From assembly GCA_021818445.1 (NCBI GenBank), contig JAKAEB010000004.1, positions 41,947 through 105,946 on the forward strand: a DNA stretch of 64,000 nt, written 5' to 3'. The position numbers and the translations under genes are program-made. Within the stretch, counting starts at the first letter, position 1, and every line of letters starts with the position of its first letter. This DNA is from Planctomycetota bacterium (GTDB lineage: Bacteria; Planctomycetota; Phycisphaerae; WQYP01). This document shows, in pieces, positions 12,255 to 60,866 of the stretch. Under the pieces are notes generated by a model. It worked only from the letters and a program-made list of their open reading frames with translations. It was not told where the DNA came from and did no database searches.

Positions 12255-12266
12255 TTGGCACGCTTC

Positions 12267-13230
12267 GCGGTGAACCAAGGTAACTATTTGCACCGCTGAG
12301 CGCCAAGGACGCGAAGACCAGCCAATCTGATTATTTCATATTTTTGTAATGCTATCCGCGGCTCTGCGCGAGATCGTAACTCTTCTCTGTGCGAGTTAAG
12401 GTGTCATGCCGTTGGCATGATGGAAGCTGTTTTTTTGGCGCGCAGAGAAAAGGAGCCACAGGGGTTAAGTCACGGAATCGTCCCCACCGTAGTGGCCAAA
12501 TCATGACAATTAGGCAGGTCCATATCCAATGTGCTTGGCGTTTCTTGGCGTCCTCTGCGATCTTTGCGGTGAACCAAGGTAACTATTGGCACCGCCAAGA
12601 GCGCCAAGGACGCAAAGACCGGCCAATCTGATTATTTCATATTTTTTTGTTTATCTTTGTATCTCGGTGGCTCTGTGCGAGGTATTAAGACCTCTCCGTG
12701 TGATATTAGGTGTCATGCCGTTGGCATGATGAAAGTTGCTTTTTTAGCGCACAGAGAAAAGGAGCTACAGGGGTTAAGTCACGAAATCGTCCCCACCGTA
12801 GTGGCCAAATCATGATAATTAGGCAGGTCCATATCCAATGTGCTTGGCGCTTCTTGGCGTCCTCCGCGCTTTGCGGTGAACCAAGGTAACTATTGGCACC
12901 GCCAAGAGCGCCAAGGACGCAAAGACCGGCCAATCTGATTATTTCATATGTTTTTAATTATTTCTGCGTCGCTGTGGCTCTGTGCGAGGTATTAAGACCT
13001 CTCCGTGTGATATTAGGTGTCATGCCGATGGCATGATGAAAGTTGTTTTTTGGCGCGCAGAGAAAAAGAGCCACAGGGGTTAAGTCACGGAATCGTCCCC
13101 ACCGTAGTGGCCAAATCATGACAATTAGGCAGGTCCATATCCAATGTGCTTGGCGTTTCTTGGCGTCCTCCGCGATCTTTGCGGTGAACCAAGGTAACTA
13201 TTGGCACCGCCAAGAGCGCCAAGGACGCGG
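12267..13230 (+). repeat. Tandem array A of ~308-bp repeat, 3 units plus partial fourth
   Basis: Units begin at CACCGC (12291, 12590, 12897, 13205) and end with TTTGCGGTGAACCAAGGTAA. Each full unit has a 17-nt palindrome TCATGCCGNTGGCATGA (12404, 12713, 13020; centres T, T, A), flanked by imperfect inverted arms of the CTCTTCTCTGTGCG / CGCACAGAGAAAAG type. The fourth copy stops abruptly near 13228. No gene is supported inside; the ~80-residue ORFs are by-products. The unit recurs at 45.4, 59.6 and 63.4 kb. Confidence 0.92.
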
Positions 13231-37361: not shown

Positions 37362-39083
37362 ATGAATTTTAATACCGCCAACCAGACTTGGCGCCAGCTA
37401 TTTGGCAACGGGACGACCTACATCGTCCCTCGGTTTCAGCGCGATTACAGTTGGAAACAGGACCAGTGGGACGACCTTTGGATGGACATTCAAGAGGTGT
37501 CATCCGCCGGTGGAGATGCCAGCCATTACATGGGCTACCTCGTTCTCCAGGCACAGGACCCCAAATCATTCACGGTCATAGATGGCCAGCAAAGGCTTAC
37601 AACACTGAGTATTCTGGCTTTGGCGGTTATAAAAGTTTTATTGGAACTCGCCGACGGGGGTGTGGCTGCGGATATGAATCGGCGGCGGGCGGAACAACTG
37701 CGGAGCATCTATATTGGCTTTCTGGACCCTGTAACGCTGGTTGCCCGGCCTAAGTTGAATTTGAACCGCAACAACAATGCATTCTATCAGGATAAACTTG
37801 TTCCATTGGAAAAATTGCCGCAGCGAAATCTGCGATCGTCCGAGCATCTGCTTCGTAAGGCGTTTGAATGGTTCGTGAAGAAAGTACGAGAAACAGGCGG
37901 CAAGGATCGCAACGGTGAAATCTTCGCCAAATTTATTGACGATCTCTCCGACCGACTATTTTTTACAGTGGTGACCGTAACCGACGAACTCAACGCCTTT
38001 CGAGTTTTCGAGACTCTCAATTCGCGGGGGGTCAGGCTCTCGCCGACAGATCTGCTCAAAAATCACCTTTTTTCAGTAGTGGCCGGTGGAACCGTGCACG
38101 AGAGTGACATCGAGGCGCTCGAGCGCCGGTGGGATCACATGGTCGGCATGCTGGGCAGTGAGGACTTTCCCAATTTTCTCCGCGTGCACTGGAATAGCCG
38201 AAATAAGCTCGTCCGCGAAGTGGATCTTTTCAAGGTAATACGCGAGAGCACAGGTGACCGGGCGGCGGTTTTTGAGTTGGTTCGCCAGATGGAGGGGGAC
38301 GTTGGACTCTACACCGCCTTACCAAATCCAGATGGCGATTATTGGGAGTCCGACGGGGCGAAATTGGTTCGGCTACTGAAAATGTTCAACGTTCGCCAGC
38401 CCTGGCCATTGCTGCTCGCAGTGGGCCGATCCATTGCAGGCGGCGAATCTAATCCCGCCAAGGAAGAGGAATTTATAGACATTTTGCGTGCCTGCGTAGT
38501 TATCTCATTTCGGTACAACGTGATCTGCGGGCTGGCGACGAACGAACAGGAGCGAACTTACAACGCGGTTGCGCAGAAGGTCAGTAATGCTGAACTGACC
38601 AATTCGGCCCAAATTATACGCGCATTGTCTGATATCTACGTTACTGACAGGCAATTTGTGGCGGCGTTTGAGGAAAAGAGATTCAAGACCGACTCCGCTA
38701 GAAATGCCCAAGTTGTCAAATATATGCTTTTCGAGATTGAGCGGCACCTCGCGGGACGCGATTTGGACAGCGCAAGTGCCCGCTACAACCTCGAGCATAT
38801 CCTTCCGCAAAACCCATCCCCGCAATGGGCCGACATCCCGGATGCGGACGACGCTGCTGACTTGCTCGGCAATATGACCCTGATGGAAAAGTCCGCCAAT
38901 AGTGCCATCGCCAATGCCGATTATCCGGCCAAGCGCGCTGCCTACGCCCGGAGCGCGATATCGCTGACAACCCGCGTCGCGGAGGAAAACGAAACATGGG
39001 CACTGGAAAATATTCGGCGGCGACAACACTGGCTTGCCGAGCAGGCCAAGGGCATCTGGCGGCTGGCCCAATTTGATAAATAG
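37362..39083 (+). CDS. DUF262/DUF1524 protein, GmrSD-like restriction/defence candidate
   Basis: A 573-residue protein with the two-domain plan of GmrSD-type modification-dependent restriction enzymes fused in one chain. The N-terminal DUF262 has YIVPRFQRDYSWKQDQW and the DGQQRLTTL motif, a ParB-like NTPase signature. A middle helical region contains FRVFETLNSRGVRLSPTDLLKNHLF, typical of DUF262. The C-terminal DUF1524 has an HNH-like active site in LEHILPQNPSPQW...LGNMTLMEKSANS. Related proteins cut phage DNA with modified bases or act as part of BREX-linked defence. It stands alone, convergent with purF, with no other defence gene nearby. Confidence 0.9.
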   Translation: MNFNTANQTWRQLFGNGTTYIVPRFQRDYSWKQDQWDDLWMDIQEVSSAGGDASHYMGYLVLQAQDPKSFTVIDGQQRLTTLSILALAVIKVLLELADGGVAADMNRRRAEQLRSIYIGFLDPVTLVARPKLNLNRNNNAFYQDKLVPLEKLPQRNLRSSEHLLRKAFEWFVKKVRETGGKDRNGEIFAKFIDDLSDRLFFTVVTVTDELNAFRVFETLNSRGVRLSPTDLLKNHLFSVVAGGTVHESDIEALERRWDHMVGMLGSEDFPNFLRVHWNSRNKLVREVDLFKVIRESTGDRAAVFELVRQMEGDVGLYTALPNPDGDYWESDGAKLVRLLKMFNVRQPWPLLLAVGRSIAGGESNPAKEEEFIDILRACVVISFRYNVICGLATNEQERTYNAVAQKVSNAELTNSAQIIRALSDIYVTDRQFVAAFEEKRFKTDSARNAQVVKYMLFEIERHLAGRDLDSASARYNLEHILPQNPSPQWADIPDADDAADLLGNMTLMEKSANSAIANADYPAKRAAYARSAISLTTRVAEENETWALENIRRRQHWLAEQAKGIWRLAQFDK

Positions 39084-49854: not shown

Positions 49855-49894
49855 CCAGCGGTTTATTGCCAGGCCCGGCTCCTATAGCGCAGCG

Positions 49895-51390
49895 ATGGAA
49901 CAGGTGGATAAATCGCTGGGTGACTTCTGGGTGGGTATCAGCAGCCCGCTGATCACGAACACCGCCGGACGCCCCATTCCATCCGATGCCCAGCTTATGC
50001 TGGAATTTTTAACCAACGACATCGTCTACACCTGCGTCAACTGGAATGCCGCCGCAGTCGCCCGGGTGCCCCTGCGGCTTTATGCCATCGACCACACCGC
50101 CGGCGGGCCAGCGCGGGCGGCCGATGCCCGCACCACCGCGCGGCCGATGCCCGCACCACCGCGCGGCTTAAACATCATCCGCATCTGGGCAACCGCGTGC
50201 GGCAGGCCAGTTCCATTACAGAAGTACTAAATCATCCCTTACTGGACCTGCTGGATCGCGACAACGATGGCCTCGGCGGCTACCAGTTGCGATATATGAC
50301 CGGCGTGTACATGGAGGTTTTCGGTGGGGCGTACTGGCTTTTGGAGGATGACTGGCGGGGCGAGCCGACCCAGATTAAGGTGCTTCCCACCCAGCGTGTC
50401 ATGCCGCTGCGCAACGACGACCTTGGGGTTGTGGGATACAAATATTTTCCCGCACTGACCGGCAACTGGATATCGCTGGATAAGTCCGACGTACTGGACT
50501 TTCGCTTCCCGGCGGTGGAAGACCCCTACGGCGGGCGGCATGCCCCGCTGCGGTCTGCCTTTATGCAGGCGGAACTGGCCGCCAAATACGCCCTGTATGA
50601 AAACAGCCTGATGGATAACCGCGCCCGCATTGACGGCACATTTATCCCGCGTGATCAAATTACCCGCAAAGAGGCTGAACGGGCGGAATTGCTGTGGAAC
50701 GAAAAATTTTCACGCTCCGGCAATGGCCGGGTGCTGGTGGCGGAGCAGGCCGGTACGTTTGTTCCCGCCCGCTACCCACCCACGGATTTGGGGCCGATGG
50801 AAATCAGTCGTGAAACGCTGCGTCGTCTGGCACTCGCCTTTGGCGTGCCCGAAGCGCTGCTATCCAAGGATGCCACCTACGCCAACATGCAGGCGAGCGA
50901 AACGCTTTACGCCCGGCAGACGATTCTGCCACGCGTACTGATATTGGAGCAAAAACTTAATGAAATGCTTACGCCGCGGTTTGGCCGGCATCTGTTTCTT
51001 GCAGCCGATAACCCGGTGCCGGCGGATGAGGCATTTAATCTGCAAAAGGCCCAGGTGGCGATTGGGGCCGGCGCATTAACACGGGGGGAGATACGCCAAT
51101 TGGCGGGTTTTGATGCCCAACTGCCGACCTCCGTCAGTGCGGCACCCAACGCCATTACAGATACTCAAACACATGGGCCCGAGGCGGATAATCTGCGGAC
51201 GCAGCAGGAACTTGCCCTGCTTTTGCAGGTGAATCGGGCCGTGGCCGAAGGGCATATGGAACAGGCGGTCGGCATCAACACCGTCGCCCGCTTATTGGGG
51301 ATTGATCAGCCAACAGCGCGGCGGCTGGTGTCCCATGCTAAGGGACAATCGGCATGCGAAGACTCAAAGGAGACAATCGATGGAAGTTAA
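49895..51390 (+). pseudogene. HK97-type phage portal protein, frameshifted by a 23-bp tandem duplication
   Basis: Two ORFs (49895-50230 and 50197-51390) are the two halves of one portal protein. The first half has MLEFLTNDIVYTCVNWNAAAVARVPLRLYA. The second has YMEVFGGAYWLL, SDVLDFRFPAVEDPYGGRHAPLR and PTDLGPMEISRETLRRLALAFGVPEALL, all typical of HK97 portals. They are joined across a perfect duplication: the unit at 50117-50139 recurs at 50140-50162. Removing one copy restores a single 490-codon frame. The portal normally forms the dodecameric DNA entry ring of the capsid. No terminase or tail gene is present. The stop overlaps the next gene by 11 bp, as in an active phage operon. The exact start is uncertain. 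Confidence 0.9.
50117..50162 (+). repeat. 23-bp perfect tandem duplication in the portal gene
   Basis: Two identical 23-nt units start GCGGCCGATGCCC and are followed by a further GCGG. 23 is not a multiple of three, so the duplication causes the frameshift. Confidence 0.95.
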
Positions 51391-52024
51391 AACATTTGAA
51401 GCCCGCATGCTGGAAGCTGCACCCGGCAAGCGAGAAATTGTTGCCTGCATCAGCACCGCTGCGGTAGACCGCCAAAATGAGGTTGTGCTGCCGACCGGCC
51501 TGCTGCGTAAAAACCATGCCGGCATGACGGTTTTTTACAACCACGACACCACACAGCCCATCGGTGTTACGCAATGGATCAAGCCGCACCATGGAAAGCT
51601 GCTGGCCAAATTTCGGTGTACGGATAAAACACCTTTTGCCCGCGACATATTTGCCTTGGCGCAGGATGGCGTGCTGCGCACCTACAGCATTGGATTTCGG
51701 CCATTGGCAGCATCGCCCCCCACCGCCGCCGAGATACGCCAAAATCCCACCTGGGCGGCGGCCACGCGCGTGCATCGCTCATGGGAACTGCTGGAATTTT
51801 CGCTGGTGGGTGTGCCGGCCAATCCTGAGGCTTTGATGCTGGCCATCAGCAAGGGTATCAGTGGTTCGGCGCGGGCGGCGATGGAGGCGATATTACCCCC
51901 ACCCCCAGTCGCGGCAGATTATGCGTGGTTGAGCGCTATCGTGTCACATCTGCGCCCGACGCCTTTGCACGATACCATTGAGGCGGCGTTCAGCCGCACG
52001 GCAAACCGCAAGCCACCAGCCTGA
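51380..52024 (+). CDS. HK97-family phage prohead protease
   Basis: A 214-residue capsid maturation protease (peptidase U35). Landmarks are the N-terminal REIVACISTAAVDRQNEVV, the His-containing FYNHDTTQPIG near residue 55, and LRTYSIGFRP with the nucleophile Ser, followed by WELLEFSLVGVPANPEA. The ATG at 51380 has AAAGGAGA upstream and overlaps the portal stop. In an intact phage it would cleave the scaffold of the major capsid protein, which is normally the next gene; here it is followed by a gap and rho. The gene itself is intact. Confidence 0.92.
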   Translation: MEVKTFEARMLEAAPGKREIVACISTAAVDRQNEVVLPTGLLRKNHAGMTVFYNHDTTQPIGVTQWIKPHHGKLLAKFRCTDKTPFARDIFALAQDGVLRTYSIGFRPLAASPPTAAEIRQNPTWAAATRVHRSWELLEFSLVGVPANPEALMLAISKGISGSARAAMEAILPPPPVAADYAWLSAIVSHLRPTPLHDTIEAAFSRTANRKPPA

Positions 52025-59524: not shown

Positions 59525-59641
59525 CCGACGCATAATCCTTTCAGATCGTGACATCTTCTGTCAGTCGGGAAATCGGCCACATCGCTTTTAATAAATGATG
59601 TCGCATATTTAGTGCCCTTGACGGTGAAGAAAACGATTCTG

Positions 59642-60866
59642 CACCGCCGAGCGCCAGGAAAGTAAAGACCGGCCAATCTGATTATTTCGTATTTTTTTCA
59701 TTGCCTCCGCGGCTCTGTGGCTCTGTGCGAGATCGTAACTCTTCTCTGTGGGAGTTAAGGTATCATGCCGTTGGCATGATGAAAGTTGCTTTTTTAGCGC
59801 ACAGAGAAAAGAGCCACAGAGGTTATATCACCGGAGTATTCACACTAAATTGGCCCAATCACGACAATTGCGCAGGTCCGTAGCCAATATGCTTGGCGTC
59901 TCTTGGCGTCCTCCGCGATCTTTGCGGTGAATCAGGTTAACTGTTTGCACCGCCGAGAGCGCCAAGAACGCAAAGACCGGCCAATCTGAGTATTTCATAT
60001 TTTCTTAATCGTCTCTGCGTGTCGGTGTCTCTGCGCGAGATCGTAACTCTTCTCTGTGCGAGTTAAGGCTTCATGCCGATGGCATGATGAACGTTGCTTT
60101 TTTTTGCGCACAGAGAAAAGAGCCACAGAGGTTATATCACCGGATCATTCGCACCATATTGGCCAAATCACGACAATTGGGCATGTCCGTAGCCAATATG
60201 CTCGGCGTCTCTTGGCGTCCTCCGCGCTCTTTGCGGTGAATCAGGTTAACTGTTTGCACCGCCAAGAGCGCCAAGAGCGCGAAGACCGGCCAATCTGAGT
60301 ATTTCGTATTTTTTTAGTTCTCTCCGTGGCTCCGCGGCTCTGCGCGAGGTCGTAACGCTTCTCTTTGCGAGTTAATGTTTCATGCCGCTGGCATGATGAT
60401 GTTTGTTTTTTTTGGCGCGCAGAGAAAAGGAGACACAGAGGTTGTGGCACTGGATCAATCTCGCGATTTTGGCCGCATCACGACAATTGGGCATGTCCGT
60501 AGCCAATATGCTTGGCGTCTCTTGGCGTCCTCCGCGATCTTTGCGGTGAATCAAAGTAACTATTGGCACCGCCGAGAGCGCCAAGAACGCAAAGACCGGC
60601 CAATCTGAGTATTTCGCATTTTTTTCATTGCCTCCGCGCGAGATCGTAACTCTTCTCTGTGCGAGTTAAGGTATCATGCCGCTGGCATGATGATGTTTGT
60701 TTTTTTTGGCGCACAGAGAAAAGGAGCCACAGAGGTTGTGGCATTGGATCAATCTCGCGATTTTGGCCGCGTCACGCCAATTGGGCAAGCCCATATCCAA
60801 TATGCTCGGCGTCTCTTGGCGTCCTCCACGCTCTTTGCGGTGAATCAGGGTAACTGTTTGCACCGC
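59642..60866 (+). repeat. Tandem array C of ~308-bp repeat, four units
   Basis: Units start at CACCGCC (59642, 59948, 60257, 60567) and the array ends at CACCGC (60861), a few bases from the cupredoxin stop codon. Palindromes at 59763, 60071, 60380 and 60674 have centres T, A, C and C. The fourth unit is about 15 bp shorter in the GGCTCTGTGCG region. Units C1-C2 and C3-C4 carry two different internal segments. ORFs of 60-81 codons inside are not supported as genes. Confidence 0.92.

Follow-up and report, generated by a model that had tools for sequence, protein, structure and literature searches.

The window, that is, the whole stretch of 64,000 nucleotides that was analysed, belongs to a genome that we label G000. 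It contains a phage-type portal gene broken in two, preceded by a promoter-like motif and followed by the gene of a prohead protease:

49863..49888, + strand: promoter-like motif, TTAT (49863-49866), a 15-bp spacer and CTATAGC (49882-49888), ending six bases before the portal ATG
49895..50230, + strand: N-terminal part of the portal gene, 111 codons, the last ~28 out of frame, with a premature stop
50117..50139, + strand: first copy of a 23-bp unit, GCGGCCGATGCCCGCACCACCGC
50140..50162, + strand: second copy of the unit, GCGGCCGATGCCCGCACCACCGC; by comparison with relatives, the derived, frame-shifting copy
50163..50167, + strand: GCGGC, a 5-bp partial third copy, forming microhomology at the unit ends
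50197..51390, + strand: main part of the portal gene, 397 codons from a GTG, in a frame open from 50119
51380..52024, + strand: prohead serine protease (Peptidase_S78), intact; it adjoins the portal throughout the family

The 23-bp tandem duplication

The first-pass annotation had claimed an exact tandem duplication at 50117-50162, and this is what we find: both copies are identical, and GCGGC, which opens the unit, occurs again directly after the second copy, up to position 50167. The TRF program counts 2.2 copies with a 100% match, the top-scoring array of the window except for two arrays with units of 309 bp. The exact match at offset 23 runs over 28 bases; with a chance expectation estimated at roughly 64000 x 0.27^28, it is not explained by chance. 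The 5-bp microhomology fits a slipped-strand duplication. The linker between the conserved portal blocks has 42 residues in the closest relative and matches what lies to either side of a single copy, hence the second copy is derived, and no tandem repeat was seen at this position in any of the relatives compared.

Elsewhere in the window, the two arrays of similar 309-bp units lie at 12263-13228 (3.2 copies) and 59640-60866 (4.0 copies), about 46 kb apart; their units are 86-90% alike and contain CGCCAAGAGCGCCAAG-type repeats. A GmrSD-type (type IV) restriction gene is found at 37362-39083.

Since 23 bp do not make a whole number of codons, the open reading frame that starts at 49895 leaves the portal frame and stops at 50230. 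The interval 49895-51390 measures 1496 nt, and taking away one unit leaves 1473 nt, or 490 codons and a stop, as the first reading had computed for the rejoined gene. Its identification as a portal holds as well: the body matches Phage_portal, PF04860, with an E-value of 1.5e-37 and 129.9 bits for a cut-off of 39.1, which makes it an HK97-type portal, and the main part also matches the portal families phrog_2662 and phrog_12. The N-terminal part has a weak PHROG portal match, and the first 70-74 residues are 54-92% identical to those of relatives. In the PDB, a sequence search with the portal gave hits to one protein only, the portal Rcc01684 of RcGTA (PDB 6tba, E 4.7e-15).

The comparison with related genomes that had been proposed as a check was run, and it revealed no differing frame: the portal of the relatives is a single unbroken gene of 431-569 codons (as called, 493 in the closest, 503 and 519 for the intact portals of the genus), and similarity continues, in an uninterrupted frame, across the site of the duplication. 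Apparent stops in the portal of one genome, G023, are not real breaks, the match there running beyond the end of the gene.

In G000, about 83 codons would be translated in the native frame, and the remaining portal could only arise as an N-terminally truncated protein from the GTG at 50197, or through a -1 frameshift. The direction of a programmed -1 frameshift fits, but the overlap has no canonical X_XXY_YYZ slippery site. In the product of 50197-51390, the conserved 75-80 N-terminal residues are missing, as is part of the linker, so that a functional portal, and packaging with it, would not be expected; from the sequence, we predict that both functions are lost in G000. Only one portal was found in the assembly of 124 contigs.

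Neighbours and distribution of the portal gene

The portal and protease genes of the window sit among host genes, with rho and rpsB downstream. The neighbours of the pair vary from genome to genome, and most loci have no further phage genes alongside; the contiguous structural, replication and integration genes of an intact prophage are not found here, the flanks being host genes.

Of 41 relatives, 20 have a portal homologue, and these 20 belong to one family of Phycisphaerae. A scan of named genome contigs yielded 22 portal loci in Phycisphaerae-type metagenome assemblies, some of which repeat the same genomes. In a set of 347 genomes from the class, close portals are confined to this family, and four further portals, at 28-31% identity, look like prophage genes. 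A scan of virus contigs gave no close relative of the portal, and phage records contained no portal above 30% identity.

Five loci and a common motif

The portal and protease genes form one of five loci:

locus A: portal and protease
locus B: capsid, lipoprotein, holin-like protein and glycosyltransferase
locus C: ParB-like protein, ATPase, small and large terminase
locus D: adaptor, head closure, terminator-like and tube-like proteins
locus E: tail-tip proteins

In G000, two of these loci are on contig C55, 80 kb apart, one is on C1, and two are on C2, 12 kb apart: with genes scattered over several contigs, they could not all fit on one short stretch of packaged DNA. The genomes compared are metagenome assemblies; the clade includes 15 good ones, all 15 with a portal and a tail tip, and capsid, large terminase (TerL) and adaptor are each found in 14, the core genes being single-copy in 14-15 of the 15.

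The HK97 capsid gene of locus B is single-copy and lies away from the portal. A glycosyltransferase gene (L058 7326-8597 and relatives) is linked to it in nearly all genomes and in related prophages, and its product may modify the particle. In locus C, a small-terminase-like gene precedes that of the large terminase, as do, in other genomes, an ATPase gene and a ParB-like gene. The Walker A motif of the large terminase, GPAGTGKT, is intact; PF03354 detected no TerL in the genus, and the gene was found using a prophage TerL as query. In locus D, the head-tail adaptor gene comes before those of the head-closure, terminator-like and tube-like proteins; a PDB search with the tube-like protein returned no phage match. 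Four genes near this locus, t32, t33, t34 and t71, were considered as tail genes and look ordinary (NUDIX-like, Fic, unknown and Ndk-like). Of the three tail-tip genes of locus E, two have homologues behind the tape measure in related prophages. A tape-measure gene was not found by sequence, and the baseplate and receptor gene set is incomplete. Directly upstream of a tail-tip gene of locus E (L196 10634-10741, G000:C55), there are exact tandem duplications of 28 bp and 18 bp, and the 18-bp unit includes one TTATT promoter box.

A motif, TTAT-N14-17-CTAnARC, is common to loci A, C, D and E, where the start codon of the first gene, an ATG, follows it after a few bases. A scoring matrix was trained on locus A alone, with a threshold set at the 99% level of 284 other genes: this level is exceeded in 11 of 12 loci D, 9 of 9 loci E and 4 of 7 loci C. 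Capsid loci carry the motif less regularly: in 7 of 15 genomes a site precedes the called start by 95-170 bp, and a few other genomes have one near the start. Position 49863 is the only site of the 64-kb window that both scores at least 15 and is followed by an ATG, and four genomes of the genus together contain 17 distinct sites of the strict pattern, 10 of which are these loci. Genome-wide, the pattern is no commoner than a reversed control, and only its placement is striking. No motif sites were found in the related prophages. The close spacing of motif and ATG suggests leaderless transcripts, from what would be a promoter active at all these loci.

Selection and descent

Pairwise dN/dS of the genes of the system, within the genus, ranges from about 0.05 to 0.41 and is mostly below 0.2, which indicates purifying selection. 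Each of the trees built for portal, capsid, TerL and adaptor agrees with the host tree of ppk in 9-11 of 13-14 splits, against an average of 0.15-0.35 when labels are shuffled. Within the family, the portal tree includes one prophage sequence, on a very long and poorly supported branch, which we take as an artefact. Congruence with the ppk tree and restriction to one family both speak for vertical inheritance and co-diversification with the host.

Comparison with known systems

Three of the six features that define a gene transfer agent, or GTA (PMC9662315), are recognised here. The particle proteins are Caudoviricete-derived, with portal, S78 protease, HK97 capsid, terminase and adaptor matching phage families of Pfam and PHROG; the five loci lie among chromosomal genes; and descent is vertical. 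The other features of the definition relate to the particle: a head in which the GTA's own genome cannot be packaged, random host DNA inside it, and delivery of DNA to other cells.

RcGTA, from Rhodobacter capsulatus (Rhodogtaviriformidae), consists of tailed-phage genes endogenised at five loci, with vertical descent (PMC9662315). Its genes include terminase, portal, HK97 capsid, adaptor and tail genes, and its portal dodecamer replaces one capsid pentamer (PMC7296036). The planctomycete system resembles it in its five loci, its vertical descent, its similar gene set and a portal of related sequence. However, it is found in another bacterial phylum, and the sequence relation is remote: the relatives of the portal are in planctomycete assemblies, which places the system outside Rhodogtaviriformidae. 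The head-tail genes of RcGTA lie in one main cluster, whereas the planctomycete portal and protease, capsid, terminase, neck and tail tip are separate, each behind the same promoter-like motif.

BhGTA (VSH-1, from Brachyspira, Brachygtaviriformidae) has a single-copy large terminase outside the structural cluster, a genome that is probably dispersed, and few phage relatives in databases (PMC9662315). The planctomycete system is like it in all three respects, with a single-copy TerL apart from the structural genes and dispersed loci, but the host of BhGTA is a spirochaete.

Two prophages in genomes of the same family (L075+L170 on G021:C147, and L076+L172 on G020:C66) have homologous portal (33-41% identical), protease, capsid, adaptor and tail-tip genes. 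Unlike the five loci, they are compact, contiguous and sporadic, with a tape-measure-like gene and without motif sites. Both prophage clusters have a glycosyltransferase-family gene beside the capsid gene.

Tailocins and encapsulins are also domesticated phage parts. They have neither terminase nor portal, encapsulins consisting of a shell protein only, whereas the planctomycete system keeps both genes, and keeps them conserved.

A probable GTA-like system and its possible loss

We conclude, with a probability of about 0.6, that the portal is part of a domesticated GTA-like particle system, spread over five chromosomal loci in a family of Phycisphaerae, and that this portal has just been lost in G000. 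A fuller version, to which we give even odds, is that of an independently domesticated planctomycete GTA, with five co-regulated loci under a shared, apparently leaderless type of promoter, caught at its loss through a slippage duplication that inactivates the portal, the result being a non-producer, or “cheater”, genotype able to flip back. We found no case of a planctomycete GTA in the literature searched.

In phages, the terminase pumps DNA through the portal. By analogy, the common promoter type would fire the five loci together, their products would build a small tailed particle, and the terminase would pump DNA through the portal into it. Recently, slipped-strand replication between two GCGGC repeats would have duplicated 23 bp in the portal linker. 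With the native frame of the portal lost, packaging should be off, while all other examined genes are intact: a natural change from producer to non-producer.

Age and reality of the break

The first-pass annotation had judged the event recent because the copies are identical, and the rate of change of the portal agrees: there is no excess of amino-acid change downstream of the break. Compared with that of G003, the nearest relative, the portal body of G000 gives a pairwise dN/dS of 0.075 at a dS of about 1.3, and, when changes are polarised with two outgroup genomes, 5 amino-acid changes fall on the branch of G000 and 8 on the sister branch. The portal has thus not drifted since the break, which, on these counts, would be either very recent or an error of assembly; the duplication may stem from the assembly process or represent a minority allele, and its reversal by slippage is plausible.

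An error of assembly or consensus, leaving the cell with one 23-bp unit, an intact portal and a GTA-like system fully functional in G000, is somewhat unlikely. Past the break, the portal shows the same conservation as that of the relatives, all of which have it intact, and the assembly is in many contigs. However, exact tandem repeats with a unit of at least 18 bp are rare, only 5 in 450 kb of the G000 assembly, and among those inside an open reading frame only that of the portal breaks a conserved gene, so the 450 kb examined give no sign of a general tandem-duplication artefact. The unit also carries the microhomology ends typical of slippage, and assemblers usually collapse short perfect tandem copies rather than expand them.

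The phage parts could also have been domesticated for a role other than DNA transfer, for example as a defensive or protein-delivering particle. DNA transfer is a prediction from the gene content, and the capsid gene has genes of a glycosyltransferase and a lipoprotein linked to it. We consider this role improbable, since a large terminase with an intact Walker A motif, a small-terminase-like gene and a portal, which are needed only for DNA packaging, are kept under purifying selection.

It is less probable still that the 23-bp pair is a reversible switch, gained and lost by slippage, that would maintain a mix of portal-on and portal-off cells as phase-variable control of a lethal, altruistic system. 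The copies are perfect, the downstream part has not decayed, and a tandem pair can collapse again; but no relative has a tandem repeat there, so that the switch would not be a conserved one, and the assembly contains a single portal. Finally, the idea of an ordinary decaying prophage, in which portal and protease would remain from a dead phage, with the duplication as part of random decay, agrees with the lack of a complete phage cluster at the portal locus, but can hardly be reconciled with a pair that many genera have retained, at low dN/dS and with trees like that of the host, nor with capsid, terminase, neck and tail genes that persist elsewhere and share a motif.

Significance

The break alone is of moderate interest: the main result is the system that it breaks. 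If the GTA-like reading is true, Phycisphaerae would provide a further independent origin of bacterial GTAs, and the five-way split, together with a recognisable promoter motif, would serve as a rule by which the missing genes could be sought. Clusters of GTA genes that have become pseudogenes have been interpreted as young cheater lineages (PMC10883770). The portal break of G000 fits such a young lineage, with the caveat of a possible assembly error, and would be the kind of fresh loss, before the decay of the rest, that the theory of GTA cheaters predicts (PMC10883770).
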